Assembly (NCBI RefSeq): GCF_018326285.1
Contig: NZ_AP023362.1
Coordinates: forward strand, 3,348,001 to 3,412,000
Reading direction: 5' to 3'
Length of the DNA: 64,000 nt
Origin: Mycolicibacterium sp. TY81
Lineage (GTDB): Bacteria; Actinomycetota; Actinomycetes; Mycobacteriales; Mycobacteriaceae
The translations under genes and the position numbers were made by a program. This document shows, one piece after another, positions 1-21,507 of the stretch. Each line of letters opens with the position of its first letter. Position 1 is the first letter of the stretch. The notes below the pieces were generated by a model that made no database searches, was not told the origin of the DNA, and saw nothing but the letters and a program-made list of their open reading frames with translations.

Positions 1-451
1 CGATACCGACGACGATGACGGGCGGCTCCCCGGCCGGGGCCGCGACCTCGGCGAGAATCCCGGCCAGCTTGCCGGTGCCCACCAGCACATCGTTGGGCCA
101 CTTGAGTGCGGCCTGCACGCCGGCCACCTCGGCGACGGCCTCGACGACAGCCACCCCCGCCGCCAGTGACAGCAGGCCCCAGGTCTCGCTCGGCACGTCG
201 GTGGTGTCCACCCCGATCGACATCAGAATCTGCGACCGCGGCACCGCCGTCCAGCTGCGGCCCTGGCGTCCCCGGCCCGCGGTCTGGTCCTCGGTGAACA
301 GCGCCACGCCCGCCACGTTCTCGCCGGACTGGGCCCGCGCCGCCAGATCGGCATTGGTGGAACCGGTTTCGGCCACCACCTCGACGCGCCAGCCGTCACC
401 GACGGACGCCTGGATCGCCGCGGCGTCCAGCGGCAGCAGCTCAGCAGTCAT
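1..451 (-). CDS. birA: Biotin--[acetyl-CoA-carboxylase] ligase BirA (3' end outside window)
   Basis: The ATG at 451 opens a frame that runs off the left edge; about 150 residues are visible of a family usually near 260-270 residues. It carries the biotin-ligase signature GRGRQGRSW near residues 59-67 and KWPNDV near residue 118, then a Gly-rich strand ending VVGIG. The enzyme activates biotin as biotinyl-AMP and attaches it to the lysine of AccA-type subunits such as AccA3 encoded here at 38.3 kb. No N-terminal helix-turn-helix is present, so it is the mono-functional class. Its start overlaps the stop of the upstream lipase-like gene by 11 nt, placing this housekeeping gene at the tail of the exopolysaccharide transcription unit. 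Confidence 0.95.
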   Translation of the reverse strand, partial: MTAELLPLDAAAIQASVGDGWRVEVVAETGSTNADLAARAQSGENVAGVALFTEDQTAGRGRQGRSWTAVPRSQILMSIGVDTTDVPSETWGLLSLAAGVAVVEAVAEVAGVQAALKWPNDVLVGTGKLAGILAEVAAPAGEPPVIVVGI

Positions 452-1670
452 TGGTTACCTTCTTCCCGGCGAACCGATCCGCCATCCAGTCGAGCATCTC
501 CTGCGCCGCGGGCGGGTTGTGGCCGCCCTGCGGGTCGAACTCTGTCGTCACCGTGCCACCGAGCGAACAGGCCCGCCCGATGGCCGCCTTCGTCCAGGCG
601 GAATCGATGAAGGGGTCCTGACCGCCGTACCAGACGTACAGTGGCGCGGTCAGCCGTCGCTGCGGAATTGCCCACGCCTGCAAAAGATTCTGCAACCGCT
701 GGGCCGCATCGGGCGACACCGGCAGGAAGTCGCGCGGCCCGAGTTGTCCGGCGGCGACGGCACGCTTGTAGGCCGCGCCGGCACTGCAGTCCGTCAGCAC
801 GTTCCAGTAGCGCGACGCACCGCCGTGCCGGTATTCATCACGGTTCAGGTCGGGGTGCAACCGGGCCAGCGATTCGATCAGCGCCTGCAGCACCGGCCGC
901 TGCTCGCTGGTCAACGTGCCGGTCTGCGATTTCGCCACCAGACCGCTGATGTCGGCGGCGGGCGCCACGGCGACCGCACCCACCAGATTGAGTTCCGGGG
1001 CGTAGGGCTCGGCCTGCTCGTCGGCGGCCCAGGCCGCCGCGCCGCCCTGCGAGTCGCCGAACGCCGCCCACGTCGTGGAGATGTCACCGAACACGTGCCG
1101 TGCCGCGCGGACGGCGTCGATCATGTTGAGGCCCGCGGTGCGGGCGTCGGAGTACGGGTGCACACCCTTGACGCCCAGCCCCTGGTAGTCGGCCAGTGCG
1201 ACGGCGTACCCGAGATTGATCACCACTTTCGCGATGGGCAGCAGGTTCATCAGGGTCGGCGACAGCGACGGTCCGCAGTTGTTGTCGATGCCCAGGGTGC
1301 CGTGCCCGAGGGCCACCACCGGCCAGCCCCCCTTGGGCGCCTGGCCCAGCGGCGTGAGCACCGCGCCCGAGACGACGGTCGGCGCGCCGCTGTCACCCGA
1401 GGTGGAGTGATACACCACGCGGGCGGCGCGAATCCCCTGTCCCGTGAAGGTGCTGGTGACCCCCGGCATGGTCGTCGCCGACAGCAGGGCGCCCGGGCCG
1501 GAGCCGGAGAGATCGGCCGAACCGATCGGCTCCGGCGCGCCCGAGAGCGGAATGAACATGTCGAGGACCTTCGAGGTCCCGATCAGCGCCAGCGGTCGCA
1601 GGTAGGTCGCGGCGGTCAGAGCACCGACGACCAGGACGGCCACCACTATCCACGGCAGGGCTTTACGCAT
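441..1670 (-). CDS. Secretory lipase-family (LIP, PF03583-like) serine esterase, paralogue 1
   Basis: A 409-residue alpha/beta hydrolase with an N-terminal membrane anchor or signal segment (about residues 6-26) and no lipobox, so it is probably exported and tethered. The likely triad is visible: Ser207 in GDSQGG, Asp352 in GGQDPF, His384 in GGHNPP. The family blocks GHGTLGID and ADYQGLG are also present. LIP enzymes hydrolyse acyl esters, but the substrate here is unknown. It is one of four paralogues (others near 4.8, 7.2 and 9.2 kb) embedded in the polysaccharide locus. It lies 37 nt after the phosphoglycosyl transferase gene and overlaps birA. A TTG codon at 1673 directly precedes the chosen ATG. 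An acyl-transfer role on the polysaccharide is inference only. Confidence 0.85.
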   Translation of the reverse strand: MRKALPWIVVAVLVVGALTAATYLRPLALIGTSKVLDMFIPLSGAPEPIGSADLSGSGPGALLSATTMPGVTSTFTGQGIRAARVVYHSTSGDSGAPTVVSGAVLTPLGQAPKGGWPVVALGHGTLGIDNNCGPSLSPTLMNLLPIAKVVINLGYAVALADYQGLGVKGVHPYSDARTAGLNMIDAVRAARHVFGDISTTWAAFGDSQGGAAAWAADEQAEPYAPELNLVGAVAVAPAADISGLVAKSQTGTLTSEQRPVLQALIESLARLHPDLNRDEYRHGGASRYWNVLTDCSAGAAYKRAVAAGQLGPRDFLPVSPDAAQRLQNLLQAWAIPQRRLTAPLYVWYGGQDPFIDSAWTKAAIGRACSLGGTVTTEFDPQGGHNPPAAQEMLDWMADRFAGKKVTNDC

Positions 1671-1707
1671 CAATGGGGATTATTCACCGACGGTCGCCCG
1701 TCCGGAG

Positions 1708-3231
1708 TCAGTAGGCGCCAGAACCGCCGATGATGGTGCGGAAGGTCTTGGCCGCGATCAGCAGATCGTTGGTGATGGACCAGTTCTCGACGTACGACAG
1801 GTCGAGCCGTACCGAGTCCTCCCACGACAGGTCGGCCCGGCCGCTCACCTGCCACAGCCCCGTGATGCCGGGGAGCACCAGGAGCCGGCGGCGCACCTGC
1901 TCGTTGTACGTGTCGAATTCACGGCGCAGCGGCGGGCGCGGCCCGACGACGCTCATGTCGCGGCGCAGCACGTTGAAGAACTGCGGCAGTTCGTCGATGC
2001 TGTAGCGCCGCAGGTACTTTCCGACCAGCGTGACGCGCGGGTCCTCGTGAATCTTGAACAGCACCCCGCTGCCGCTCTCGTTGAGGTCGAGGCTGATCAG
2101 GTCGTCGACCATGCGGTCGGCGCCCTGCACCATGGTGCGGAACTTCGTCATCTGGAACGGCTTGCCGTCCAAGCCGATTCGCTCGGAGCGGTAGAAGACC
2201 GGACCACGGCTGGTGAGCTTGATCGCGATGGCCGACAACACCATCAGCGGCGAGGTCACGGTGAGCGCGAACAGCGCGACGAAGACGTCGAACGCGCGCT
2301 TCTGCAGTTTCTTGGTCCCGCTGTACTGCGGACGCTCGACGTGGATCAGCGGCAGACCGGCGACGGGGCGCATGGTGAGCCGGGGGCCGGCGACGTCGAT
2401 GACGCTCGGGGACACGACCATGTCGATGCCCACCTTGTCGAGCTCCCAGGACAGTTCGCGCATGCCTTCGGGCCCGAGGTGATCGGTGGTGGTCAGGGCG
2501 ACGGCGTCGAAGGCCGCCTGGGTGATGGCGTCGGACACCTGGGACTCGTTACCGAGCACCGGCAGCTCGCCGACCCCGGCCACCTCGAAGGTGCCGCCTG
2601 CCGGCCGGCCGGTGAGGCAGACGCCGCGGACCGAATAGCCGTACCACCACTCGCGGTGCAGGGACTGCACCAGGTTGCTCACGGCGCGCGGGTCACCGAC
2701 CGCCAGCACGTTGGCGACGCACTTGTTGCGCCGGCGCAGCCGCGCGAGCACCCGGCGGCAGATGGTCCGGCCCACCACGAGGCCGACGAGGCCGAGCGGC
2801 AGCGCGACGGCCAAGTAGCCGCGAGCGTATTCAGGGCGGAAGATCATCAGTGCGACGGCGATGATGCCGACGGTGGCCAGCGTCGCGGAGAACACCCGGC
2901 GGTACTCCTCGACACCGGCGCCGACGATGCGCGGCGAGCGGGTGCGGTACGCGGCCAGCATGGCCAGCCAGATCACGGCGACGAACAGCGACAGGACCGA
3001 GTAGTACGAGAAGACGTGCAGATACGTCGAGGTGAATTCCAGGGAGGCGTCCGGTGTACCGAGCTTGACGAACTGGGCACTCGCCAGGGCCAACACGACC
3101 ACGACCAGATCGAATGCGATGAGGCACCAGCGGTAACGCGTCTGCCAGGCCCGGTCAGCTAAAGGCGCGACGGCCCTTACGGGACGCGCGGGAGAAGCCT
3201 CGGGAACGTAGAGTTCTTCTGCCACTGACAC
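1708..3231 (-). CDS. Polyprenyl-phosphate sugar-1-phosphate transferase (WbaP/CpsE-like)
   Basis: A 507-residue polytopic protein: several N-terminal membrane helices, a central CoA-binding-3-like Rossmann region, one further helix near residue 320, and a C-terminal bacterial sugar transferase domain (PF02397). That domain shows KRAFDVFVAL, then SERIGLDGKPF, KFRTM, DELPQ and GRADLSWEDSV. This class moves a hexose-1-phosphate from a nucleotide sugar to undecaprenyl- or decaprenyl-phosphate, the first step of Wzx/Wzy polysaccharide assembly at the cytoplasmic membrane. The GTG at 3231 was chosen because GGGAGGGAG lies about 9 nt upstream; the frame stays open for 31 more codons without such a site. 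A 113-nt gap separates it from the preceding same-strand gene, so it may have its own promoter. Which sugar it transfers cannot be read from sequence. Confidence 0.92.
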   Translation of the reverse strand: MSVAEELYVPEASPARPVRAVAPLADRAWQTRYRWCLIAFDLVVVVLALASAQFVKLGTPDASLEFTSTYLHVFSYYSVLSLFVAVIWLAMLAAYRTRSPRIVGAGVEEYRRVFSATLATVGIIAVALMIFRPEYARGYLAVALPLGLVGLVVGRTICRRVLARLRRRNKCVANVLAVGDPRAVSNLVQSLHREWWYGYSVRGVCLTGRPAGGTFEVAGVGELPVLGNESQVSDAITQAAFDAVALTTTDHLGPEGMRELSWELDKVGIDMVVSPSVIDVAGPRLTMRPVAGLPLIHVERPQYSGTKKLQKRAFDVFVALFALTVTSPLMVLSAIAIKLTSRGPVFYRSERIGLDGKPFQMTKFRTMVQGADRMVDDLISLDLNESGSGVLFKIHEDPRVTLVGKYLRRYSIDELPQFFNVLRRDMSVVGPRPPLRREFDTYNEQVRRRLLVLPGITGLWQVSGRADLSWEDSVRLDLSYVENWSITNDLLIAAKTFRTIIGGSGAY

Positions 3232-3344
3232 TGACGCGTACTCCCTCCCATTTGCTGGCTGTTCGCTATAGCCCCCGCTCAGCGAACTGCGACTACTATC
3301 GCATCGTTTGCTCGAAAATACCACCGATCAGAAAAATAGGCAGG

Positions 3345-3920
3345 TCAACCGCAGCGGCCCTGCAGCGCGGCCTTAGCGAACCCGGCAAACTGATAGAAGA
3401 ACGTCAGCTCCCATCCGACGGGCGAGAAGTCATAGTCCCTGGGCAAAGCCACCGCAACCACCGAACCGTGGTCCGGGGAATAGCACTGCCGGAAGATCAG
3501 GCGGGCGCGCGGCAGGTGGTACCGCCAGCTGACCACGATGATCCGGTGCCAGGATCGGCCCTCGGAGAGTTGGCGCATCATCATGGCCTCGCCGCGGGTC
3601 GTCAGGATCTCCGGCTTCCGGCAGATCACCTCGATGTCGGTGGCCGGCGCGCAGGCGCTCTTCATCTGGGGGTCGCCCGGCAGGTACGGGTTGGACAGCA
3701 CGACGGTGCGCGCCCAGCCCTGGCGGGCCAGGCTCAGCCCGTACTGTTCGCGGCCGTCGTGTTCGCCGGCCAGCACGATGATCGCGTCGGCTCGCTGCAG
3801 CTGATCGGACCTGGCGTTGGCGAACAGCACCACCCCGGCCAGCCCGACATCGACGAGCAGGACGATCGTGACCACGCCGATGACGCGACGAACGATTCGG
3901 CCGAGGTCACCGCGTGCCAT
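3345..3920 (-). CDS. YdcF/SanA-like (DUF218) membrane protein
   Basis: A 191-residue protein with one N-terminal membrane helix (about residues 12-32), followed by a DUF218 domain: ADAIIVLAGEHDGREQYGLSL near residue 45, then VVLSNPYLPGD, a TTRGEA block and VVSWRYHLPRAR. DUF218 proteins (ElyC, SanA, YdcF) are tied to envelope and polyprenyl-linked glycan metabolism, though their chemistry is poorly defined. The ATG at 3920 overlaps the preceding acetylesterase gene by 14 nt, indicating translational coupling. Two cysteines (in KSACAP and VICRK) could pair outside the membrane. A role in processing or quality control of the polysaccharide is inferred from context. Confidence 0.8.
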   Translation of the reverse strand: MARGDLGRIVRRVIGVVTIVLLVDVGLAGVVLFANARSDQLQRADAIIVLAGEHDGREQYGLSLARQGWARTVVLSNPYLPGDPQMKSACAPATDIEVICRKPEILTTRGEAMMMRQLSEGRSWHRIIVVSWRYHLPRARLIFRQCYSPDHGSVVAVALPRDYDFSPVGWELTFFYQFAGFAKAALQGRCG

Positions 3921-4803
3921 AGTCCGCCAGTTGTTCGGCGCACATCTCGCGGTACTGCTGCCACATGCGGCGACCCAACTCGCGCTGCCCGGCGGCGCTG
4001 TAGTGCCGGTCGTCGGGACTGTTGTACGAATCACGCGGGCCCGGCACGAAGGTGGTCAGTGGCCACCGGTTCGGGGTGTCGGCGTGGACGGCGTCGATCG
4101 CGGCGTAGGGCTTGCCGCTCAGCTCCATCTCCTCCGGCACCATCTGGCCCAGCACGAACGGCAGGCGCTCCCCGTACCGCGCGCGCATGTCCCCGATCAG
4201 CGAATCGAGCTTCTCCTGGTACTGCGCGCCGGAGATCAGTGGCACGTCGGTCTCCCCCTGATGCCAGAGCACGGTGGCGATCTCACTGCCGGGATACCGC
4301 GCGAGCGCCGCGTCGATGGCCTTCACGGCCCGGCGGTACAGGTTCACGCGGGTCTTGCGGTCGGCCGGATCCCAGGTGTGCCCGTTCTTCGGGGTGAACG
4401 AGGTGTCGCCGCGGGCACCGGGGATCAGCAGCACCGGACGTCCGGTGTCCTCGGCGAGTTGCTTGGCGAAGGTCGGACCGAAACCGACGTATTTGCAAGG
4501 TATTTCGTGCAGCAGCGGCTGCGTCGCCAGCACCGCGGTGCCTTTGGACGGCCCGCACATGGCCCACTGGTGCACCAGCGGATGGGGCCGGTCCAAGCCG
4601 TCGGGCTCGACGGGCAGCCCCATGCCGAACGCGTTGGACTGCCCCAGGATCGGCAGGATCAGGTATGGCCGCTCGGGCTCGCCGACGGGGGTGCCGCGGG
4701 GCGCGATGAGTCGCTTCACGATGCATTTCGCCTCGATCAGCAACTGTTGATGAATCGGGCTGTCGCCGTCGGGATTACGTGGTCCCCTGCGCAGGACAGT
4801 CAT
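3907..4803 (-). CDS. SGNH-like carbohydrate acetylesterase (SASA/DUF303 family)
   Basis: A 298-residue protein with the sialate-O-acetylesterase-like (PF03629) blocks: nucleophile Ser in ILGQSNAFGMG, a Gly-rich LLIPGARGDTSF block, ATVLWHQGETD, and a C-terminal DDRHYSAAGQ carrying the likely catalytic Asp/His. Such enzymes remove O-acetyl groups from sugars. The ATG at 4803 lies inside the end of the upstream lipase-like gene (29-nt overlap) behind GGGAGG. No convincing signal peptide is seen. Together with the acyltransferase at 6.0 kb and the hexapeptide acetyltransferase at 18.5 kb it suggests an O-acetylated polysaccharide whose acetylation is edited. Confidence 0.82.
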   Translation of the reverse strand: MTVLRRGPRNPDGDSPIHQQLLIEAKCIVKRLIAPRGTPVGEPERPYLILPILGQSNAFGMGLPVEPDGLDRPHPLVHQWAMCGPSKGTAVLATQPLLHEIPCKYVGFGPTFAKQLAEDTGRPVLLIPGARGDTSFTPKNGHTWDPADRKTRVNLYRRAVKAIDAALARYPGSEIATVLWHQGETDVPLISGAQYQEKLDSLIGDMRARYGERLPFVLGQMVPEEMELSGKPYAAIDAVHADTPNRWPLTTFVPGPRDSYNSPDDRHYSAAGQRELGRRMWQQYREMCAEQLADYGTR

Positions 4804-6013
4804 TGACCGCCTCGCCTCCCCTGAATCGTTCTGCCAGCCACCGCAATTGACCCGGTCCGTCAATATCGGCATGCCCACCGTCCGGCTGGAAATTCCAGAC
4901 CACCGTACCGCCCAGCGAACATGCGCGGGCGATGGCGGCCTTCGTCCATTCCGGGTCGAGGAAGGTGTCCTTGCCGCCGTAGACCACCGACATGGGAGCC
5001 GACAGCGGCTGCTGCGGCAGCGCCCAGTCCTGCAGCAGGCGACGGAGCCGGTCGGCGGCCGCCGCGTCGACGGGCGCCAGGTCGGTCGGTCCGATCGCGT
5101 CGATGGCGGTGGCGCGGTAGGCGACGTCGGGCCCCGAGCACGCCGACAGCACCTTCCAGTACCGGGCCGCCGCGCCCCTGCGGTAGTCGTCGCGGTTCAG
5201 GTCCGGATGCAGCCGGGCCAGCGACTCGACGATCGCCTGGAACGCCGCTTCCTGATCTTTGGTCATGGTGCCCGCGACGGCTTTGTCGACGATGCCCGCC
5301 ACGTCGGCCGACGGCACGCTGGCGGCCGCCCCGATCAGGTCGAGTTCGGGCGCGTAGGTGCGCGCCTGTTCGTCTGCGGCCCACGCCGCGCCGCCGCCCT
5401 GCGAGCCGCCGAACACGGCCCAGCGGTTCGAGATGTCGCGGAAGGTGTGGCGCAGGGCGCGGACGGAGTCGATGACGTTGCGGCCCGCGGTGCGGCTGTC
5501 GGTGTACGGATGGACACCGGGGGCACCCAGCCCCTGGTAATCGGCGAGGGCCACGGCGAAACCGAGGTTGACGAAGCCCTGCACGAACACCACGTTGCCG
5601 AGGAGATTCGCCGACAGCGACGGCGCACAGGGCTGGTCGATGCCGGTGGTGCCGTGGGCCAGCGCGATCACCGGCCAGCCGCCGTCGGGCGCCTGGCCGC
5701 GGGGCGTGAACACCGATCCCGACACCACCGTCGGCGCATCGGTGTCACCCGAGGTGGATCGGTAGACCACGCGGGCGGCCTGCAGATCCTTGCCTTCCAC
5801 CGAGTTGGTCAGCGCCGGCATCGTCATGGCGCTGATCAGGCTGCCTGGGCCCGAGCCGGTGAGGTCGGCGGTGCGGATCGGCACCGGGTCACCGGCGTCG
5901 CCGTGCCGCAGCTTGTCCAGGGCCCAGCTACCGACCTGCCACATCACCGGCAACGACGCCGCGATCAGGAGCACTGCCGCGAGCGCGGCGCCCCACTGGA
6001 TCGCACGACGCAT
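4775..6013 (-). CDS. Secretory lipase-family (LIP) serine esterase, paralogue 2
   Basis: A 412-residue exported-type protein with an N-terminal hydrophobic anchor (about residues 5-27). The triad is intact: Ser204 in GGSQGG, Asp349 in GGKDTF, His381 in GGHADID. It is closely related to paralogue 1 (shared DLTGSGPG, YQGLG, HPDLNRD and WTKAAI segments). The start ATG abuts the TGA of the upstream acyltransferase with no spacer, so the two are probably co-translated. Pairing with that acyltransferase and with the downstream acetylesterase is the main hint to function; the substrate is unknown. Confidence 0.85.
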   Translation of the reverse strand: MRRAIQWGAALAAVLLIAASLPVMWQVGSWALDKLRHGDAGDPVPIRTADLTGSGPGSLISAMTMPALTNSVEGKDLQAARVVYRSTSGDTDAPTVVSGSVFTPRGQAPDGGWPVIALAHGTTGIDQPCAPSLSANLLGNVVFVQGFVNLGFAVALADYQGLGAPGVHPYTDSRTAGRNVIDSVRALRHTFRDISNRWAVFGGSQGGGAAWAADEQARTYAPELDLIGAAASVPSADVAGIVDKAVAGTMTKDQEAAFQAIVESLARLHPDLNRDDYRRGAAARYWKVLSACSGPDVAYRATAIDAIGPTDLAPVDAAAADRLRRLLQDWALPQQPLSAPMSVVYGGKDTFLDPEWTKAAIARACSLGGTVVWNFQPDGGHADIDGPGQLRWLAERFRGGEAVNDCPAQGTT

Positions 6014-7243
6014 TCAGGACCACCTGGTGCGGTACCGCTTGGCGAATTTCATGACGGGTTCTTCCACTGCGTAGTACGTGACGGCCGAGACCACGAGTGT
6101 CACCGCCAGGACGAGCGCCACGTTGCGCAGCATGCCGGGCACGGTGTCGCCGGCCATCAGGCCCCAGCGTCCCAGCAACAGCATGAGGGGGAAATGCCAG
6201 AGGTAGGCCGACAACGAGACCTTCCCGACGAACCGGAAGGGCGCGGTGTCCAGCAGCTCGGCCAGCCCGGACCGCTCCCCGCGGAACAGCGGCGCGACGA
6301 TGACGAGGATGCCCAGCGCGCACAGCACCGCCAGGGCCGATGTCGCGTACGGGTTGGCCAGGGCGATCAACCCGAGCATGACGATGCCCGCCGGGAACAT
6401 CGCCAGGAAGCTGTACAGCCGGACGCGCCGGCTGAGCTTCTCGCGAATCGCGTTGTGCTCCATGGCCACGACCAGCACCGCGGCGGCCATGCCGAACGCG
6501 AAGGTGTCGGAGTTGGTCAGGAAGGTCTTGGTGTAGACCGCGACCCAGTTGGCGCCCCAGTTGATCTCCGTCGGATCGGTCAGGTGCAGTGCCGAGATCA
6601 TCCACGGCACGAAGGCCCGGCCGATGAAGCCCAGCGCGATCAGCAGTGCCGGGCCGAGGGACACGATGACCCACGGCCGCAGGTTCGATCGCCGGGCGAG
6701 GGCGAACAGCAGCATGCCCAGCAGCGGGATCGAAAGGTAGAAGGCGTATTCCAGCGTCAGCGACCACGACGGGTTCAGGCCGGTCTGGAAGTACTTCGGG
6801 ATGTACGACTGCATCAGGGTCAGGTTGGCGATCAGCTGCCACGGGTCGGTGATCATGCCGGTGCCGTCTTCGGTGCGCGTCGGCTGCAGTGACGCGTTCT
6901 CGATGTAGACGATCTGCAGCAGGTAGTTGCACAGCAGGAAGATGACCAGGTAGCCGGGCAGGATGCGGGCGATGCGGTGGACGGCGAAGTTCGCGGTGCT
7001 GGGCAGTTCGCGCTGCTCGATCAGGTTGCGCACGTAGGGCAGGAACAGCAGGAACCCGCTGAGCGCGTAGAAGAAGATCAGCGACAGCCCGACCAGGTTC
7101 GTCTTCCAGTGGTAGGCCGTCTGCGGCGAGTAGTGCCCGGTGACGTGCATGACGGCGACGCCGAGGCACGACAGCCCGCGGGCGCCGTCCAGCCCGATGA
7201 TGCGGGCCCGGGTCCGGACCGGTGCCGAGGTCGGCGCGTTCAC
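6014..7243 (-). CDS. Membrane acyltransferase, acyltransferase-3 (OafA/YrhL) family
   Basis: A 409-residue polytopic protein starting with the family signature IIGLDGARGLSCLGVAVMH, whose Arg and His belong to the conserved acyltransferase-3 motifs. About ten membrane helices follow, ending with AVTYYAVEEPVMKF, the usual C-terminal motif. These proteins carry acyl groups across the membrane and O-acylate extracytoplasmic glycans. The GTG at 7243 shares GTGA with the stop of the upstream lipase-like gene; an alternative longer frame would overlap that gene heavily and was rejected. It probably acylates the exopolysaccharide or its lipid-linked repeat unit. Confidence 0.88.
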   Translation of the reverse strand: MNAPTSAPVRTRARIIGLDGARGLSCLGVAVMHVTGHYSPQTAYHWKTNLVGLSLIFFYALSGFLLFLPYVRNLIEQRELPSTANFAVHRIARILPGYLVIFLLCNYLLQIVYIENASLQPTRTEDGTGMITDPWQLIANLTLMQSYIPKYFQTGLNPSWSLTLEYAFYLSIPLLGMLLFALARRSNLRPWVIVSLGPALLIALGFIGRAFVPWMISALHLTDPTEINWGANWVAVYTKTFLTNSDTFAFGMAAAVLVVAMEHNAIREKLSRRVRLYSFLAMFPAGIVMLGLIALANPYATSALAVLCALGILVIVAPLFRGERSGLAELLDTAPFRFVGKVSLSAYLWHFPLMLLLGRWGLMAGDTVPGMLRNVALVLAVTLVVSAVTYYAVEEPVMKFAKRYRTRWS

Positions 7244-11913: not shown

Positions 11914-11949
11914 GGTCGTGCCCCTTATTTCAGCAATGCGACGGCTCAC

Positions 11950-11978
11950 AGATTAACGGCTGGGAACCGGACCGACCA
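11950..11978 (-). promoter_or_regulatory. Candidate promoter of the 11.9-0.4 kb minus-strand operon
   Basis: On the minus strand TAATCT (11955-11950) fits the mycobacterial TANNNT -10 pattern, with a poor -35 (TGGTCG) 17 nt upstream. Transcription would start near 11943 and give a roughly 30-nt leader containing AAGGGG before the TTG start. It lies in the 132-nt divergent gap shared with the wzy-like gene. Confidence 0.4.
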
Positions 11979-12045
11979 TTCAGACGCGCCACGGGTCCGG
12001 GCAACCTGCTTGAGCTTAGCTGGTCGAGCTGAGAACATAGTCGGC

Positions 12046-13464: not shown

Positions 13465-13515
13465 GTGCGCGTTTGCGCCTCGCGACGCACTTCATAGGTG
13501 AAGGGCGGTTGCACG

Positions 13516-15057
13516 ATGCCCGGGAAGCGCCCCCGACGATCCGCCCGCCGTTTCTCGAGCGTGGCATCGGCGATCGCCGGCAGCATGGTCTGCGCCCTCA
13601 TCGTCTTGACCGGCATCCCAGGGGACACCCCTGAGCGGGTCAGGATCGCCGAGCGGGCCAATGTCGTCAACCTGCCGACCACCATCGGCTTCGCCGACTC
13701 CGACATCTACGGACTGTCGCCCGATGACGTGAACCGGACGCTGGCATTGATGGCCAACAACCGCGTGAACACCATCAGGTTGATGATCCCGTGGGCCGGC
13801 GTCGAGCCGATCCTCGGCCAGCTCGACTGGAGCCTGGTCGACAAGACGGTGAATGCCGCGGCCGCCATGAACATGTCGATCATCGCATTCGTCAATGCCA
13901 CCCCTCCCTGGGCCATGTCGCAGGGCGGCCTGCCGCTGAGCAGCCGGCCGTCGGACCCCGACGCCTACGGCGCCTTCACGGCCAAGGTGGCCACGCGTTA
14001 CAAGGGCAAGATCTCCGCCTACGAGATCTGGAACGAGCCGAACGCGGTGTTCTTCTACAGCCCCGCGCCCGATCCCGCGGGCTACACCGATCTGCTGAAG
14101 TCGGCCTATCCGCGCATCAAGGCCGTCGACCCGGACGCGACGGTGATCGGTGGGGTCGTCGGCGCCGTCGTGGACTTCGGCTCGTGGTCGATCAACCCGG
14201 TGCGCTTCATCGCCGGGATGTACGCCGCCGGCGCCAAGGGGAACTTCGACGCGCTGTCGTTCCACCCGTACAACTACAACCTGAAGTTCTCCGACGGCAT
14301 GCTGATCGCGAATTCGCCTGTCCTGCAACTGGTTCAGATGCGCCAGGTGATGATCGACAACGGCGACGAGGGCAAGCGGATCTGGGCCACCGAGTACGGC
14401 GAGCCCACCTCGGTGGTCAACGAGACCACGCAGGCCGCGTACCTCAAGGACATCTACACCAAGTGGCAGGAGATGCCGTACACCGGCCCGCTCATGGTCT
14501 ACACCACGCGTGACCGCAAGACCGGAAGCAACCAGGCCGACGCCACCGTCGGGCTCTACCGCAGCGACTGGACACCGAAGCCCGCGGCCGCCGAACTGGC
14601 GGCGACCATCGCCGCCGGGGTACCGAAATCGCCGGAGTTCCTACGCTTTTCGCAGATCACCGACCCGGCGCACGGCTCGGTCCTGAGCCCGGTGTTCAAG
14701 GCCACCAAGACGGTGTGGGCGCAGGTCCGCACGGTCAACACCATCTACGAGCTGCCGAGCGGCTACGTGTCGTCGCCGCGCCCGGTGGCCGACATCGCGA
14801 TGCAGCGGAACTCGGTGCCCGCGAGCGTGTTCGCCAACGGCCAACAGGACTTCACGGGTGGCCAGGCGTTCCGGGTGTGGTGGTCACCCGAGACCGGCGC
14901 CCACTGGGCCTCGAGCGCTTTCGCGCAGGCCTGGAAACCGCAGCTGGGGTTGGCCACCAGCGACGAGCGCTACGTCAACGGCTCCAACCGCGTCGACTTC
15001 CAGCACGGTTACATGGTCTGGGCACCGTGGGTCGGCGTGAAGGTCTACTACACCTGA
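13516..15057 (+). CDS. Secreted glycoside hydrolase (clan GH-A, GH5/GH39-like) with LGFP-like C-terminal repeats
   Basis: A 513-residue protein with an N-terminal signal or anchor (about residues 15-34). A TIM-barrel glycosidase follows: acid/base Glu174 in YEIWNEPN and nucleophile Glu293 in WATEYGEP, both placed as in clan GH-A. The C-terminus (about 425-513) contains WWSPETGAHWASSAF and LGLATSDER...DFQHGYMVWAP, which resemble LGFP repeats found on mycolate-layer proteins. The ATG at 13516 follows AGGGCGG. The gene ends 10 nt inside the convergent glycosyltransferase gene. It may trim or release the polysaccharide; its specificity is unknown. Confidence 0.8.
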   Translation: MPGKRPRRSARRFSSVASAIAGSMVCALIVLTGIPGDTPERVRIAERANVVNLPTTIGFADSDIYGLSPDDVNRTLALMANNRVNTIRLMIPWAGVEPILGQLDWSLVDKTVNAAAAMNMSIIAFVNATPPWAMSQGGLPLSSRPSDPDAYGAFTAKVATRYKGKISAYEIWNEPNAVFFYSPAPDPAGYTDLLKSAYPRIKAVDPDATVIGGVVGAVVDFGSWSINPVRFIAGMYAAGAKGNFDALSFHPYNYNLKFSDGMLIANSPVLQLVQMRQVMIDNGDEGKRIWATEYGEPTSVVNETTQAAYLKDIYTKWQEMPYTGPLMVYTTRDRKTGSNQADATVGLYRSDWTPKPAAAELAATIAAGVPKSPEFLRFSQITDPAHGSVLSPVFKATKTVWAQVRTVNTIYELPSGYVSSPRPVADIAMQRNSVPASVFANGQQDFTGGQAFRVWWSPETGAHWASSAFAQAWKPQLGLATSDERYVNGSNRVDFQHGYMVWAPWVGVKVYYT

Positions 15058-16190
15058 CCATCGCCGCGCAGCAGGTCGGCAACCGCCTTGTGCGGCAACC
15101 GGTCCTGCCACCGCTGCCGGTTGATCTCGTACAGCTGGTTGCCCAGATCGACGGCGGCCGGCACGTCGGTGAGCAGCCGCCGGCACTCGGCGATGAACGC
15201 CGCGTCCTCGTCCAGGGCACGCAGCCCGAAGATCGGCCCGAGTGATCCGATGGCCGCCGTGGTGGCGACGGCAGGCAGCCCGATCCGGATGGTGTCGAGC
15301 AGCTTGACCCGGACTCCTCCGCCGGTGCGGATCGGCGCGATCAGGGCCCGGCACGTGGCCAGGAACGCCCCGAGGTCGTCGACGAATCCGAGGTCGCGGA
15401 CCCCGTCGGGATAGACCGGGTCGGCCGCACCGGGTTTCTTGGCCCCGATGATGCACAGTTCGGCGCCGGCGATCCCGGCGGAGATCCGCGGCCACAGTTC
15501 GAGGGCCCGCAGGAACCCCTCCTGGTTGGGTGGCCAGTCGCGGGTACCCATGAACACCAGCCGCGGCGGGGAGGCCGCGACGTCGACCTGGGTACCGGGC
15601 GGCATCGTGATGTCCATGAACCGGGCGTCCCGGACACCGTTGTCGCGGTAGTACTCGGCTTCCTCGGCGTCGTAGGTACTGACGGCGTCGGCCGCGCGCG
15701 CGACGCGCAGCTCGTCGCGGACCAGCCGCGGTTCCTCGACGCGGCCGAGCGCGCCGCGCGACGCCCGCCAGACCAGCGACTCGCTCACGTTCGTGTTGAC
15801 GACGAACCGCTTCTTCCCGAAATGCTTGCTGCGGAAGAACGATTCGGCCATGTAGCTGTGTTCGGCGACGAACACGTCGGCGTCGCTGCGGTCGATGGCA
15901 CGGACCAGTTCGTCGGTGTCGAATCGGACATGCACCAGGCTGCGCCGGCGCCGCAGGGAGTCGATGAGCAGCCGGTGCGGACGCACGGCCGGCTTGTGGA
16001 CCCGCTCCAGCGGCAGGCCACCGGGGATCAGGTCGGCGGTGACGGTGCCCGGTTGGGGCGACAGCGCGATGGCCGACACCTCGGACGAGTCGGCGGCCAG
16101 CTGCATGAGCATGCGGGCCAGTGCGACGTCACCGGTGTGTTCGAGCACCGGGTCTTTCGACAGGATGAACGCGGTCTTCGGTGTGGTCAT
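15048..16190 (-). CDS. GT4-like glycosyltransferase
   Basis: A 380-residue GT-B protein. The C-terminal half holds the donor-site features LVFMGTRDWPPNQEG, LCIIGAKKPG, DLGFVDDLGAFLATCRALIAPIRTGGGVRVKLL and a late acidic stretch (RALDEDAAF). The N-terminal half is less conserved. ATG 16190 shares ATGA with the stop of the flippase gene. As the last gene of the 21.5-15.0 kb unit it probably adds one sugar of the repeat unit or of a side chain; donor and acceptor are unknown. Confidence 0.85.
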   Translation of the reverse strand: MTTPKTAFILSKDPVLEHTGDVALARMLMQLAADSSEVSAIALSPQPGTVTADLIPGGLPLERVHKPAVRPHRLLIDSLRRRRSLVHVRFDTDELVRAIDRSDADVFVAEHSYMAESFFRSKHFGKKRFVVNTNVSESLVWRASRGALGRVEEPRLVRDELRVARAADAVSTYDAEEAEYYRDNGVRDARFMDITMPPGTQVDVAASPPRLVFMGTRDWPPNQEGFLRALELWPRISAGIAGAELCIIGAKKPGAADPVYPDGVRDLGFVDDLGAFLATCRALIAPIRTGGGVRVKLLDTIRIGLPAVATTAAIGSLGPIFGLRALDEDAAFIAECRRLLTDVPAAVDLGNQLYEINRQRWQDRLPHKAVADLLRGDGQV

Positions 16191-17323
16191 GACTCCACCA
16201 CCTCGCGCGGCCGGTAGACCGCCCACGTGAACCCGGCGAGCATGATCGCGTCGGCGACGGTGGCCGCGATGGCCGCGCCCACCGCGCCGAGCGGTGTCAG
16301 TGTCGCGAGGGCGGCGACCATGCCGAGTTTCACCGGCACCAGGCCGACGGCGATGGTGAGCCGGAAGACGTCGCGCCGCTGGGTGTAGAGGATCACCTGC
16401 AGCACGAAGATGCAGATACGCAGCGCGGCGAAGCCGCCCATGATCATCATGGTCGTGGCGAGCTGGGTCGGTGCCCCGAAGGCGAACAGGCAGCCACCGA
16501 TGATCAGCAGCAGCGAGCCGCCGAGTGCCGCCATCCGCAGGATGTTGCGCAGCGGTGGGGCGGCGGACAGGTCACCGCCGCTCTCCCGCAGCGGCTCGTG
16601 ATAGGTCATGCCGAAGGACTGGCCGGCGGCCGCCACCGCGGCCGCGACGACCCACGCGAGCTGGTAGTAGCCCGCTGCCGTGGTGTCCACCAGGGTGCCG
16701 AGCAGCAGCACGTCACCGCCGAGATACAGCGTGGTGCCGAGCATTTCGCCGGTCAGCGCCGCGATCAACCGCGGCGGCCCGGGTGGTGCGGGCCGGTGGC
16801 CGATGGCCAGCTTGGCCCCGACCAGCAGGATCAGCACGTAGGGCGTGCAGTACAGCAGCGAGGCGTGGGTGAGCGTCGGGTGCGCCGAGGTGTACAGGTA
16901 CACCGCGCCGATGCCGGCGCTGGAGAACTGCCGCGCGGTGTCGAGCCGATACACCTTGTCCGGGTGGCCATCTCGCGCGGACTGACTCTTGACGACGTTG
17001 AGGGCGATCTCGCCGCCGGCCACCATCAGACCGAAGCCGATGACGTAGTTGACGTCGAACGTGACCGCGCCGGTGGCGACCAGCCCCACTGCGACGAGAT
17101 AGCGCATGGTGCGCTCACGCAGGAAGTGCTCCTCGGATTCCCGGATGGCCCGGACCGCGAAGGAGTTGTCGACGGTGTTGCCGACGATGCCGTTGAGCAC
17201 CGTCGCCATGGCGTACAGGCCGTATTCGGAGACGCCGAGGCGCTGCACGAGGATCAGCGTCCACAGCAGGCCGACCCCGCGACCGCCGTAGATCCAGATC
17301 AGCGAGATGAGCGTCTTCGCCAC
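16187..17323 (-). CDS. Wzx-like polysaccharide flippase
   Basis: A 378-residue protein of about 10-12 hydrophobic helices with MOP-superfamily character (RLGVSEYGLYAMATVL near residue 28, VDTTAAGYYQLAW near 210). It would flip the lipid-linked repeat unit to the outer face for Wzy. The GTG at 17323 lacks a clear ribosome site, but the first helix starts almost at once and no in-frame start lies upstream before the neighbouring stop at 17355. It is shorter than many Wzx proteins (about 400-500 residues). Confidence 0.82.
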   Translation of the reverse strand: MAKTLISLIWIYGGRGVGLLWTLILVQRLGVSEYGLYAMATVLNGIVGNTVDNSFAVRAIRESEEHFLRERTMRYLVAVGLVATGAVTFDVNYVIGFGLMVAGGEIALNVVKSQSARDGHPDKVYRLDTARQFSSAGIGAVYLYTSAHPTLTHASLLYCTPYVLILLVGAKLAIGHRPAPPGPPRLIAALTGEMLGTTLYLGGDVLLLGTLVDTTAAGYYQLAWVVAAAVAAAGQSFGMTYHEPLRESGGDLSAAPPLRNILRMAALGGSLLLIIGGCLFAFGAPTQLATTMMIMGGFAALRICIFVLQVILYTQRRDVFRLTIAVGLVPVKLGMVAALATLTPLGAVGAAIAATVADAIMLAGFTWAVYRPREVVES

Positions 17324-17354
17324 ATTGCGGGTGGGCGCTTCGGGGGCAGTCAGG

Positions 17355-18482
17355 TCACACGCTCACAGATGCTCGGGCCAACATGTCGGTCCACACGCGG
17401 CCGAACGCCTCGGCCGTCCGCGGCCCGGAGCAGGCCTCGCGGTAGGCCTCGACGTGCCGGCCGAACTCGGCCAGTCGCTCATCGTCGTCGACGAGGGACA
17501 CGATGGCCTTCGCCAACGACGACGCCACCTGTTCGGGGTTCTGGTCGCCGATGCGGACGACGAGTGCGCCGGCGCGCTCGTCCAGTTCGGCCAGGGCGCC
17601 GTAGTCGGTGCAGACGACGGGGGTGCGGTACGCCATCGCGTGGGCGACCGAACCGGACGCCGGGTAGGTCTCGGCGTAGAAGTGGCGCTTGCCGTACGGA
17701 ATCACCACGGCCCGTACCGAATCGAAGAACGCGTCCTCGGCCGGCCCGTCGACGGGGCCGACGATCTCCACGCCCGGGCCACCGGTCAGTGCCTCGGTTC
17801 CCCGGCCCGCCACCCGGATGACGATGTCGTCGGGCAGCTCCCGGCGAATGCGGGCGATCTGCTCGAAACCCTTGCCGCGGTATACATGTCCGAAGAAACC
17901 CACGGCCTTGGGCCGCTCGGTGAGCGGGCGCAGCCGCGGTCGTTCGGAGATGATGTGCGGCACGGCGGCGACCGTGGTGCCGGGGTAGATGGCCTTGATG
18001 GAGTCCGCGCCGATCCGGCTCAGCGCGACCATCGTCCGGTCCCCGTTGACGATGCCCTCGATTCGCCGCGACAGCGGGCGCAAAGGGTAGTGCAGGCCGT
18101 GCATGACGAGCCGGTGCTGCGCCACGAACCGGGTCCGCGCCGGCCACCAGATGCCCTGCGGCGGATCGTGAATCGTCGCCGCCACCGGCACCCCACGTAA
18201 TCCGGCGATGGACCAGAACGCCGACACCGCACCGGCCGCCAGCTCGGCATGCACCAAGACCCGGCCCGGCTTGCCGGAGGCCACCAGCTCGGCGACCGCG
18301 CGCCGGTGGCCTCGTACCTGGGCCACCGTCTCGGCCCCCGGGCCGAGGGTGCGGCGTTGCACGACCTCACCGAACAGCGGCCGCACGGCGTTGACGAAGT
18401 TCTCGGCGTAGTCGCCCACCGCGGTCTGGCCTTCGGCCGGACCGATGTAGACCAACCGGTATTCGCGTAGATCGACCGGCAT
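17355..18482 (-). CDS. GT4 glycosyltransferase, copy A of a tandem pair
   Basis: A 375-residue GT-B protein with the donor-binding core KAVGFFGHVYRGKGFEQI near residue 195, GRGTEALTGGPGVEIVGPVDG, and the late AETYPASGSVAHAMAYRTPVVCTDYG segment holding the acidic ribose/diphosphate ligands. It is nearly superimposable on the gene at 19214-20359, including long runs of identical DNA, so the two are recent duplicates or are kept alike by gene conversion. Its ATG at 18482 overlaps the stop of the acetyltransferase gene by 1 nt. Confidence 0.88.
   Translation of the reverse strand: MPVDLREYRLVYIGPAEGQTAVGDYAENFVNAVRPLFGEVVQRRTLGPGAETVAQVRGHRRAVAELVASGKPGRVLVHAELAAGAVSAFWSIAGLRGVPVAATIHDPPQGIWWPARTRFVAQHRLVMHGLHYPLRPLSRRIEGIVNGDRTMVALSRIGADSIKAIYPGTTVAAVPHIISERPRLRPLTERPKAVGFFGHVYRGKGFEQIARIRRELPDDIVIRVAGRGTEALTGGPGVEIVGPVDGPAEDAFFDSVRAVVIPYGKRHFYAETYPASGSVAHAMAYRTPVVCTDYGALAELDERAGALVVRIGDQNPEQVASSLAKAIVSLVDDDERLAEFGRHVEAYREACSGPRTAEAFGRVWTDMLARASVSV
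17662..17710 (+). repeat. 49-nt direct repeat, copy 1 (within duplicated glycosyltransferase A)
   Basis: These 49 nt are identical to 19521-19569. The repeat is part of a longer stretch of high DNA identity between the two glycosyltransferase genes, not an independent element. Confidence 0.85.
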
Positions 18483-19198: not shown

Positions 19199-19213
19199 AG
19201 TGTTTCGGCCTCG

Positions 19214-20359
19214 TCAGTGCAGCCGGCCCTGGCGCGTCAGCATCTCCGACCACTTTGCGGCGTAGGCGGCGGCGACGTTCTCCGGCGACCGCTCCTGGCG
19301 CGTCCGGTCGGCATTCGCCTCGAGTTCCTTGAGCCGCGTCTCGTCGTTGAGCAAGGCCGCGATGGCCGCCGAGAACCCGGCCGGCAGTGCCTTGGGGTCG
19401 TCGGAGTCCATCGGCACGACGACCGCGCCGGTCTCGGTGCCGAACTCGGCCAGAGAGCCGTAGTCGGTGCACACCACCGGGGTGCGGTACGCCATGGCGT
19501 GCGCCGCGACCGACGAGGCGGGGTAGGTCTCGGCGTAGAAGTGGCGCTTGCCGTACGGAATCACCACGGCGCGCACCGAATCGAAGAACGCGTCCTCGGC
19601 ATCACCGTCGACGGCGCCCACGATCTCCACCCCCGGGCCACCGGGCAGCGCTTCGGTCCCCCGGCCCGCCACCCGGATCACGATGTCGTCGGGCAGCTCC
19701 CGGCGAATGCGCGCGATCTGCTCGAATCCCTTGCCCCGGTACACATGCCCGAAGAAGCCGACGGCCTTCGGCCGCTCGATCACCGGGCGCACCCGGGGCC
19801 GCTCGCACACGAGGTAAGGGGCATACGCCACATCGGTGTTCGGGTACACATCGCGAATGGACTGCGCGCCGATCTGGCTGAGGGCGAACAACGTCCGGTC
19901 CCCGTTGACCATGCCCTCGAGCATCCGCGACACCGGACGCAGCGGGTAGTGCAGGCCGTGCATCACCAGCTTGTGCCGCGCCACGAACTTCGTGCGCCCC
20001 GGCCACCAGATGCCCTGCGGCGGATCGTGCACCGTCGCCGTCACCGGCACGCCGCGCAACCCCGCGATGGACCAGAACGCCGACACCGCACCGGCCGCCA
20101 GCTCCGCATGCACCAGCACCCGGCCCGGCTTCCCGCCGGCCACCAGCTCGGCGACCGCGCGCCGGTGCCCCAGGATTTCCCGCGCGCTGTCGGAACCCGG
20201 TCCCAGCGTGCGGTGCTCGACCAGTTCGCCGACATGGGGCCGCAGCGCCCGCGTGAGGTTCTCGGCGTAGTCACCCACCGCCGTCTCGTGGTCCGCCGGA
20301 CCGACGTACACCAGGCGGTAGTCCTTCAGCGTGGCGACCGGCGCCGCTTCTGGCGCCAT
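19214..20359 (-). CDS. GT4 glycosyltransferase, copy B of a tandem pair
   Basis: A 381-residue GT-B protein nearly identical in its middle to copy A (17355-18482): the same HDPPQGIWWP, HGLHYPLRP, FGHVYRGKGFEQI, GRGTEAL and PYGKRHFYAETYPAS blocks. It diverges at the N-terminus, in the acceptor-side ISERPR/VCERPR region and at the C-terminus. ATG 20359 overlaps the stop of the preceding gene by 1 nt (TGATG). The divergent parts suggest the copies may now use different acceptors or add successive residues. Confidence 0.88.
   Translation of the reverse strand: MAPEAAPVATLKDYRLVYVGPADHETAVGDYAENLTRALRPHVGELVEHRTLGPGSDSAREILGHRRAVAELVAGGKPGRVLVHAELAAGAVSAFWSIAGLRGVPVTATVHDPPQGIWWPGRTKFVARHKLVMHGLHYPLRPVSRMLEGMVNGDRTLFALSQIGAQSIRDVYPNTDVAYAPYLVCERPRVRPVIERPKAVGFFGHVYRGKGFEQIARIRRELPDDIVIRVAGRGTEALPGGPGVEIVGAVDGDAEDAFFDSVRAVVIPYGKRHFYAETYPASSVAAHAMAYRTPVVCTDYGSLAEFGTETGAVVVPMDSDDPKALPAGFSAAIAALLNDETRLKELEANADRTRQERSPENVAAAYAAKWSEMLTRQGRLH
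19521..19569 (+). repeat. 49-nt direct repeat, copy 2 (within duplicated glycosyltransferase B)
   Basis: Identical to 17662-17710. The pair could recombine and delete the intervening acetyltransferase gene. Confidence 0.85.
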
Positions 20360-21507
20360 CAGTACCCGGCCAGCTTGTCGACTGCCTCATGCAGCCGAGC
20401 GCTGAACGCGTCCTCGGTGAACTGGGAGACGTGGTGTTTGATCTTCTCCTGGTCCCACGTCGCCGACTCGAATCGGTCCAGCGCCTCGCGCACCGAATCC
20501 GGTTGCGGTTCATCGAAATACAGGCCGGTGGTGCCCTCGTCGATGGTGTCGAGGAAGCCGCCGAACCGCAGCGCGACGCTCGGCCGGCCCCACACGCCCG
20601 CTTCGATCGGGGTCAGACCGTAGTCCTCGAAACTCGACGACATCAGCGCCCGGCAGTTCTTGTAGAGCCAGGCCATCTGCCCGTCGGTGAGGTTGTGCAG
20701 CATGGTGACATTGTCGGTCTTCATCGACCGCAGGCGCTCGGCTTCGGGCCCGTTGCCGACCACCACGAGCTGCCGGTCACTACCCGCGAAAGCCCGCACG
20801 ATGACGTCGACGTTCTTGTACGGCAGCAGCCGGCACACGACGAGGTAGAAGCTGCCGTCCGGATCGCTCAGATCGACCTTGTCCTCGAGTTCCTCGACGG
20901 GTTCGACGGCGTACGACCGCGACATCGCCACCGGCGCGAACATCACCTCGGCGTCGATGTCGTAGGCCTTCTTGACGTATCCGCTGATCATGGTCGAGAT
21001 CGCGAGGTACTTGTCGGCCGCGAGCGCCTGCCGGCGGTCCCAGTCGAGCAGGCGCTTCTTGGTGAGCTTGAGGCCCAGGCGCTTGATCGGGTTCGCGTGG
21101 TCCCCGAGGTAGGCCTCGGTCTGGTAGAGCCAGCGCGCCGGGTTGTAGCAGTAGATGAGCTTCTTGCCGTTGGTCCGGAAGCCGTGCGACCAGCCACTGC
21201 AGCTCGCCAGCACGATGTCGGCGTCGACGAACATGGACTCGGCCACGCGCGGATAGATCGGCAGGGCGGCCCGGTGGTACTTGCGGGCCAGACCCACCTT
21301 GTTGAGCGCGGACACCCGGATGTCGAGGTCGGCAAACTCCGGGTAGGTCAGCTCGGGGTCGTACAGCATCGTGTACAGCGGGGCGTCCGGGAACGCCTTC
21401 GTCATCGAGAGGACAACCTTTTCCGCGCCGCCGAACTGGGTCAGATAGTCGTGGGCGATGGCCACCTTGGGCCCGTCCACTCCGTCGTACTTGCGCGTCG
21501 AATGCAC
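20359..21507 (-). CDS. GT4 glycosyltransferase (WbaZ/PimB-like), first gene of its operon
   Basis: A 382-residue GT-B protein: N-terminal VAIAHDYLTQFGGAEKVVLSM (a common GT4 entry motif), then SGWSHGF, CYNPARWLYQTEAYLG, the donor core VVCRLLPYKNVDVIVRAF and the late SSSFEDYGLTPIEAGVWGRPSVAL with the conserved E-x7-E-like ligand pattern. It resembles mannosyl- or rhamnosyl-transferases of O-antigen loci; the sugar is not determined. GTG 21507 follows AAGGGG. It heads the unit running down to 15.0 kb. Confidence 0.88.
   Translation of the reverse strand: MHSTRKYDGVDGPKVAIAHDYLTQFGGAEKVVLSMTKAFPDAPLYTMLYDPELTYPEFADLDIRVSALNKVGLARKYHRAALPIYPRVAESMFVDADIVLASCSGWSHGFRTNGKKLIYCYNPARWLYQTEAYLGDHANPIKRLGLKLTKKRLLDWDRRQALAADKYLAISTMISGYVKKAYDIDAEVMFAPVAMSRSYAVEPVEELEDKVDLSDPDGSFYLVVCRLLPYKNVDVIVRAFAGSDRQLVVVGNGPEAERLRSMKTDNVTMLHNLTDGQMAWLYKNCRALMSSSFEDYGLTPIEAGVWGRPSVALRFGGFLDTIDEGTTGLYFDEPQPDSVREALDRFESATWDQEKIKHHVSQFTEDAFSARLHEAVDKLAGY

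Follow-up and report, generated by a model that had tools for sequence, protein, structure and literature searches.

A Wzx/Wzy-type polysaccharide locus of Mycolicibacterium and related genera with LIP/CAL-A-type hydrolases as regular parts

What are lipase-like genes doing inside a polysaccharide assembly locus? The question is raised by a stretch of Mycolicibacterium sp. TY81 DNA (contig NZ_AP023362.1, positions 3,348,001 to 3,412,000; the window is this whole stretch of 64,000 nucleotides), in which a Wzx/Wzy-type polysaccharide locus (441..21507) lies between birA and accD5, and four genes of the PF03583 (LIP) family alternate with its assembly and tailoring genes. An earlier note on this DNA had pointed to the four LIP-family genes and to their alternation with assembly and decoration genes, and both observations were confirmed: all four LIPs exceed the PF03583 cut-off of 23 bits (42.8-70.7 bits), and the order found in the window recurs in other genera. 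The locus is a real and conserved variant of the Wzx/Wzy type, undescribed within the literature searched, in which LIP enzymes resembling Candida antarctica lipase A (CAL-A) are regular parts; how these enzymes affect the polymer we infer. On the minus strand, the genes from 11949 downwards are ordered Wzz-kinase, LIP4, Wzz, LIP3, AT3 (acyltransferase 3), LIP2, SASA, DUF218, PGT (phosphoglycosyl transferase) and LIP1, with the following features (BY, bacterial tyrosine):

10438..11949, minus strand: Wzz plus BY-kinase-like protein; arginine replaces the Walker-A lysine
9155..10441, minus strand: LIP4, in the kinase-Wzz slot (class A); PF03583 42.8 bits; Ser and His of the triad absent
8490..9302, minus strand: Wzz-like co-polymerase; PF02706 0.00019 and TIGR01006 42 bits, both below cut-off; coordinates of the open frame, the real start probably being near 9.1 kb
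7240..8493, minus strand: LIP3, in the Wzz-AT3 slot (class B); PF03583 67.1 bits; triad present
6014..7621, minus strand: AT3, membrane acyltransferase 3; PF01757 2.2e-23; 8 hydrophobic segments; coordinates of the open frame, the real start probably being near 7.3 kb
4775..6013, minus strand: LIP2, in the AT3-SASA slot (class C); PF03583 70.7 bits; predicted CAL-A fold, triad present
3907..4803, minus strand: SASA carbohydrate acetylesterase; PF03629 2.9e-24; ATG at 4803; no hydrophobic segments found by a hydropathy test
3345..4034, minus strand: DUF218 membrane protein, which we take to be SanA/ElyC-like; PF02698 1e-9; coordinates of the open frame with a trimmed start
1708..3324, minus strand: PGT, initiating phosphoglycosyl transferase; PF02397 4.2e-65, 219 bits; TIGR03025 413 bits, cut-off 296
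441..1673, minus strand: LIP1, in the PGT-birA slot (class D); PF03583 69 bits; GDSQG, D and GGH present

The starts given for Wzz, AT3 and DUF218 are trimmed and are not start codons, and their three junctions are left out of the overlap figures. At the six of nine operon junctions with a usable start codon there are overlaps of 4, 4, 0 and 29 nt and gaps of 20 and 34 nt. PF03583 matches number seven in the 6.47 Mb genome, four of them within 10 kb at this locus.

The association of these LIPs with polysaccharide genes extends well beyond one genome. The wide LIP family is evidently common elsewhere in these genomes, since 142 of the 148 same-genus genomes have some match at E<=1e-10, but all 70 matches of at least 400 bits fall in 16 of the 148, exactly the 16 genomes in which the window Wzy was found. 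Sixty-three of the 70 share a contig with wzy and are no more than 20 kb from it; among the other seven, five adjoin kinase, Wzz and SASA genes on contig C446 of G070, an incomplete genome, one is on a separate contig of the fragmented genome G112, and one, in G035, is clearly apart from wzy. Thus, this lineage does not show the outcome that the earlier note had named as refuting its proposal, in which LIP genes would stand apart from polysaccharide genes no less often than beside them. Loci with wzy on the same contig contain 3 to 7 LIPs of at least 400 bits in 14 of 15 cases (2 in the broken G112 locus), the maximum being seven in the single locus of G055. As markers of the locus, PGT was set aside (112 of the 148 genomes match at E<=1e-30), and so was the window Wzy profile for wider searches (6 of 298 genomes and 2 of 76 genera of the order match); the latter search misses some loci because more distant Wzy genes are present in Williamsia and Gordonia loci. 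A plasmid search with LIP2 returned 83 records, all with matches below 60% identity and nothing useful.

A scan of named genomes (68 loci from the best 80 of 536 candidates, some genomes giving more than one locus) identified such loci in Mycolicibacterium (llatzerense, hodleri, elephantis, bacteremicum, neoaurum, aurum, frederiksbergense, canariasense, moriokaense, yunnanensis and others), Rhodococcoides/Rhodococcus, Williamsia and Gordonia. Beside a LIP, 59 of the 68 loci have one or more of Wzy, Wzx, Wzz, AT3 or a kinase (at least 30% identity); those lacking all of these are L105, L109, L111, L112, L113, L117, L121, L132 and L146, among which L105 and L132 have kinase matches below 30%, and L112 and L132 have a PGT nearby. 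The presence of the module in named genomes of several genera excludes chance or an assembly artefact. Among the matches listed for 301 family genomes, the class A profile scores above 450 bits in genera g1, g3, g4, g89 and g91, and at least 131 of the 301 genomes have a class A match at E<=1e-70; in genus g3, every one of 37 genomes has at least one LIP, and 22 have three within ~7 kb.

Gene order is conserved together with gene content. Mycobacterial loci have the order kinase-LIP-Wzz-LIP-AT3-LIP-(SASA-DUF218-PGT-LIP), with rearrangements, and most Rhodococcoides/Rhodococcus, Williamsia and Gordonia loci have kinase-LIP-Wzz-LIP-AT3-LIP with SASA and PGT optional (L114, L122 and L129 deviate). 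A quick maximum-likelihood tree with 192 LIPs, in which 70 of the 189 inner branches are open, groups the sequences largely, though not in clean monophyly, according to their slot in the operon: A is the kinase-Wzz slot, B the one following Wzz, and C the one following AT3 or preceding SASA, each cluster holding Mycobacterium, Rhodococcoides/Rhodococcus, Williamsia and Gordonia rows, with class D (PGT-birA) a branch inside the C cluster found in Mycobacterium only. Slot changes on the tree number 4, 9, 10 and 3 for A, B, C and D, versus shuffled means of 39.8, 39.1, 40.0 and 21.2. Co-occurrence, positions conserved across several genera and the slot-wise clusters thus give strong support to the proposal that the LIPs are part of the Wzx/Wzy system. 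LIPs woven in at conserved positions suggest a polymer that gains or loses fatty acids.

Are all of the LIPs enzymes? The Ser-Asp-His triad residues are present in LIP1, LIP2 and LIP3, but LIP4 has GAGEG instead of GxSxG and VGDTG without His, with only the Asp retained; that one of the four LIPs is triad-less had gone unseen in the earlier note. Simple tests of motifs and hydropathy indicate that LIP3 and LIP4 are likely lipoproteins and that LIP1 and LIP2 carry a membrane segment at the N terminus (hydrophobic segment 5-23 in LIP1). When Ser and His were scored by slot in the 196 LIP rows of a wider set, both were kept in 42 of 42 rows of slot B and in 43 of 44 rows of slot C, the exception (L083) being cut by a contig end, and one or the other was lost in 19 of 45 rows of slot A, LIP4 included. 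Sixteen of these 19 belong to one clade; L114, L129 and L130 fall outside it, and therefore more than one triad loss in slot A is likely. The remaining LIP rows fail the triad in 5 of 52 cases (true loss in an extra LIP in L087 and L129; cut or misread pieces in three). Outside LIP loci, the triad is lost in 9 of 13 LIP rows, and these nine constitute one clade inside the B cluster. Despite its triad loss, LIP4 evolves under purifying selection, with a ratio of nonsynonymous to synonymous substitution rates (dN/dS) of 0.10-0.14 in four comparisons with M. llatzerense-like sequences, near the LIP2 values (0.10-0.15; LIP3, 0.22-0.27), which rules out a decaying pseudogene. Two PGT rows with dN/dS >2, L082 and L081, were left out because their alignments must be misregistered, the proteins being 96 and 90% identical.

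The predicted structural models of LIP2 and LIP4 have predicted local distance difference test (pLDDT) values of 84 and 81, and among their Foldseek matches in the PDB, CAL-A-like lipases, lpg1103 and Xanthomonas LipA rank first, with other alpha/beta hydrolases far behind; a profile search agrees with the assignment to a CAL-A-like fold. The predicted fold and the triads fit an acyl-ester enzyme, and the three roles considered in the earlier note, that the LIPs acylate the polymer, de-acylate it or attach it to mycomembrane lipids, are all still candidates.

The birA-accD5 interval looks like a capsule-type exchange site for polysaccharide loci, of which the LIP type is one version, because it is nearly empty in some mycobacteria and holds LIP-free loci of 40-60 kb in others. 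Matches to birA and accD5 were located in 16 chosen genomes, 12 of them without this Wzy. The two matches are ~0.1-0.4 kb apart in G026, G039, G060 and G077, ~1.7-1.8 kb apart in G031 and G045 (the accD5 match of G045 being partial), 3.6-4.2 kb apart in G006 and G009, and 6 kb apart, with a PGT, in G002. In G054, G082 and G085, they are separated by 40-60 kb with PGT and Wzz-kinase matches and no LIP match; the G054 stretch (ten open frames) contains a GT2, a PF01943 flippase, an acyltransferase-3 and transposase pieces, with a G+C content of 0.54-0.63 beyond 14 kb. The LIP locus of G098 sits elsewhere than birA-accD5. In the LIP locus L049 (G067), two PGT copies flank birA.

Active BY kinases have a Walker-A lysine and a C-terminal cluster of tyrosines, and the protein of the window fails on both counts: its Walker-A position is occupied by arginine, and no tyrosine was found in its last 60 residues. 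The kinase named in the earlier note thus survives as a Wzz/BY-kinase-like protein, the kinase identity of which appears doubtful because the Walker-A lysine is replaced. In 69 rows with a LIP on the same stretch the Walker-A residue is R in 64, A in 4, T in 1 and K in none, and in 54 rows from named loci it is R in 49, A in 4 and T in 1 (genomes recur among the rows, and the five A/T rows are divergent at the site, so that their alignment is unsure); six more rows on short wzy stretches have R at the position of the lysine. Three LIP-free loci at the birA-accD5 site keep the Walker-A lysine, a small control (n=3). An exopolysaccharide (EPS) system of Myxococcus reportedly includes a tyrosine pseudokinase (PMC12004946).

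We lean, tentatively, towards a Wzx/Wzy EPS or capsule system at the exchangeable birA-accD5 site, with CAL-A/LIP hydrolases as fixed parts that would act as extracytoplasmic transacylases and LIP4 as a scaffold. The PGT would start the repeat unit, the four glycosyltransferases would build it, Wzx would flip it and Wzy would polymerise it, with chain growth controlled by Wzz and the Wzz-kinase-like protein. LIP1 and LIP2 (membrane-anchored) and LIP3 (lipoprotein) would work outside the cytoplasmic membrane, moving fatty acyl groups from lipid donors or AT3-loaded intermediates onto the polymer, or between its sugars, and SASA would trim acetyl groups. LIP4, a lipoprotein with a dead triad that is produced together with the lysine-less Wzz-kinase, may be an acyl-binding, glycan-binding or scaffold part of the co-polymerase complex, and the polymer that results would be lipidated and could sit on the mycomembrane. 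Transacylation is favoured over hydrolysis, with modest confidence, because CAL-A-related enzymes belong to the small number of lipases capable of acyl transfer in water, using long-chain donors (PMC7383625, partial text), because SBLE, an extracellular enzyme of the CALA family, is a transesterase acting on a glycolipid (PMC11210130, partial text), and because Rhodococcus EPS carries fatty acids, ester-bound stearic and palmitic acid having been reviewed (PMC12786566, partial text). A bolder version is doubtful: a Wzx/Wzy system that lipidates its polymer and is restricted to mycolic-acid bacteria, in which CAL-A transacylases would attach long acyl chains as esters to the growing polymer on the outer side of the membrane, and the dead LIP and lysine-less Wzz-kinase would form a non-kinase co-polymerase regulator coupling growth to lipidation.

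Several observations weigh against the transacylase reading. The CAL-A family consists primarily of lipases and esterases, and the Wzx of the locus is weakly identified. The 400-bit LIP cut-off was chosen after inspection of the list, it picks out nearest kin because the LIP genes of the window itself went into the query, and the first LIP in a genome without this Wzy (G024, 388 bits) falls just under it. The producers of fatty-acid EPS, R. erythropolis PR4 and R. rhodochrous, were not seen in the best 120 of 1259 class A relatives. In genus g94, which is, at a guess, Rhodococcus proper, LIP matches reach at most 397 bits among those listed for the 301 family genomes, and none of six g94 stretches contains the module, one having a kinase-like match (107 bits) adjoining a LIP. 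The genome of R. ruber IEGM 1391 (L135) carries the module, and in one study the EPS carbohydrate of this strain amounted to merely 2.3 mg/L (PMC12298843, partial text), a low yield from which neither acylation nor behaviour under other conditions can be read. Strains known for fatty-acid EPS may lack the module, a point against the analogy, and fatty-acid EPS as direct support is itself weakened by the lack of PR4 and R. rhodochrous among those 120 relatives, the g94 scores and the R. ruber yield.

The same enzymes might instead be de-acylases that strip acyl groups added by AT3 and the hexapeptide enzyme and so trim or proof-read the repeat units, either ahead of Wzy action or following it, a task for which some other polysaccharide systems use other esterases. 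AT3, SASA and a LIP adjoin each other, and the family is mainly known for lipases and esterases, Xanthomonas LipA being a cell-wall esterase; however, a locus that bears SASA already has a deacetylase-type enzyme, the up to seven close LIPs per locus (G055) are many for trimming, and CAL-A relatives reportedly accept long-chain donors only (PMC7383625, partial text). We regard de-acylation as unlikely, though a contender to be taken seriously. Anchoring, in which the LIPs would join the finished polymer to mycomembrane acyl donors such as trehalose mycolates, in the manner of Ag85/Chp acyl transfer, appears rather improbable: the extracytoplasmic anchors, the intact triads of slots B and C, and the best-scoring named relatives, which come from mycolic-acid genera (best 80 of 536; best 120 of 1259), would suit it, but no mycolate-specific feature was seen, and Ag85-type enzymes are absent from the 50 structural matches shown.

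A purely regulatory or structural role, with the LIPs as non-catalytic co-polymerase partners or glycan binders, would account for slot A, where 19 of 45 rows lack the triad, probably through more than one loss, and where LIP4 stays constrained, but it is very improbable for the set as a whole, given a triad kept in 85 of 86 rows of slots B and C, the other row being cut. Least credible of all is that the LIPs are passengers, lipid-scavenging lipases merely sharing a hot-spot island with polysaccharide genes; the exchangeable birA-accD5 site does hold LIP-free polysaccharide loci as well, and LIP genes are common elsewhere, but the alternating slots and the slot-wise LIP clusters are common to several genera.

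The genes that would supply the rest of the assembly pathway in the transacylase reading, and the flank of the site, are as follows:

12046..13464, plus strand: Wzy polymerase; PF04932 (Wzy_C) 34.6 bits, cut-off 31.7; 12 hydrophobic segments
13498..15057, plus strand: glycosidase, GH39/42-like with LGFP repeat, probably secreted; N-terminal hydrophobic segment
15048..16226, minus strand: glycosyltransferase 1; PF13692 1.5e-12
16187..17323, minus strand: Wzx flippase candidate; PF01943 0.0058; named from relatives; 7 hydrophobic segments
17355..18482, minus strand: glycosyltransferase 2; PF13692
18482..19198, minus strand: hexapeptide acetyltransferase, WcaF-like; scores below the WcaF cut-offs
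19214..20359, minus strand: glycosyltransferase 3; PF13692; similar to glycosyltransferase 2
20359..21507, minus strand: glycosyltransferase 4; PF00534 5e-20
22740..24368, plus strand: accD5-like carboxyltransferase, flank of the site; PF01039

The wzy gene starts near 12046, divergent from the kinase gene; the G+C content over it (12001-13500) is 0.61 versus 0.68 window-wide. LIP1 marks the end of the locus, beyond which, past the window edge, are birA, a PH-domain gene, GtrA and purK (names assigned from sequences), and the right flank consists of a methyltransferase-like gene and accD5. The PGT, SASA, AT3, DUF218, Wzy, four glycosyltransferases and glycosidase proposed in the earlier note are borne out by Pfam matches, but its flippase and two Wzz-type proteins have weaker matches, below the cut-offs. 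The two Wzz domains are conserved in the module, with PF02706 scores of 22.1 and 24.8 bits, slightly under the Pfam cut-off of 25.5, a weak point of the annotation. The protein encoded at 16187..17323 is probably a Wzx flippase, on weak family evidence: it has no Pfam match at E<=0.001, its sole PF01943 match (E=0.0058) scores 16.5 bits versus a cut-off of 28.2, and 3 of 11 members match PF01943 at E<=1. In public records, several of its relatives are named 'O-antigen/teichoic acid export membrane protein' or 'lipopolysaccharide biosynthesis protein', and many others 'hypothetical protein'. NCBIfam at E<=0.01 gave no name for Wzy, Wzx, DUF218 or LIP2.

Close LIPs are also found singly or in unusual forms. 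A second, unlinked close LIP is common to hodleri-like genomes (L117 of M. hodleri, L109, L111 and L113); that of L117 adjoins a penicillin-binding transpeptidase gene and has a UDP-glycosyltransferase-like neighbour. The window's own genome has a solitary LIP without Ser/His between CNNM genes and malate synthase (L070, G000:C1:2457842, ~9947-12576), with a PF00756 esterase signal directly downstream. No polysaccharide assembly genes were detected by Pfam around L070 and L117. In L046 (G055, ~1200-3470), two LIP domains opposite to the operon strand seem to lie in a single long open frame and may be a tandem LIP-LIP fusion, and a 722-aa LIP protein of M. madagascariense is among the class A relatives.

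How does the locus compare with known systems? Colanic acid and succinoglycan are products of Wzx/Wzy-dependent systems. Ag85 and Chp1/Chp2 are likewise extracytoplasmic, with a Ser hydrolase fold and transacylation on sugars, but they are of other families, concern trehalose lipids and have no Wzx/Wzy operon. The PGT, glycosyltransferases, Wzy, Wzz-like protein with a kinase-like domain, O-acyl tailoring and glycosidase are shared with Wzx/Wzy EPS and capsule systems including the imp/wps clusters of Actinoplanes (PMC13390465, partial text), whereas LIP/CAL-A hydrolases at fixed positions and a kinase-like protein without the Walker-A lysine set this locus apart; the words lipase and esterase are absent from the available main text of the Actinoplanes paper. 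The LIPs resemble the CAL-A superfamily (Candida antarctica lipase A, CpLIP2, Starmerella SBLE, Xanthomonas LipA) in predicted fold, in PF03583 profile and, for three of the four, in triad, but differ in lying in a polymer operon, in their predicted anchoring to a bacterial membrane and in having one dead paralogue, and are known from sequence and models. The fatty-acid-containing EPS of Rhodococcus (FR2/FACEPS of R. erythropolis PR4; R. rhodochrous) is a heteropolymer with ester-linked long-chain fatty acids from a mycolic-acid genus (PMC12786566, partial text); the available main text of that review makes no mention of wzy, a gene cluster or a lipase, and the LIP module was not found here in those species, the genomes not being searchable by name.

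No published account of a LIP-bearing Wzx/Wzy locus in mycobacteria was found in the literature searched, most subscription journals being outside it, which is no proof of novelty, and within the same literature no genes were seen to be assigned to the fatty-acid ester step on actinobacterial EPS. If the LIPs do carry out esterification, the locus would provide both genes for this step and an enzyme class with known transacylase relatives. The dead LIP and lysine-less kinase, set against the lysine-keeping LIP-free loci of the same site, offer a natural contrast on the role of the kinase. The textbook polysaccharides of mycobacteria are alpha-glucan, arabinomannan and mannan, and the system described here, if the reading is true, would give mycobacteria an exported polymer route beyond these three.

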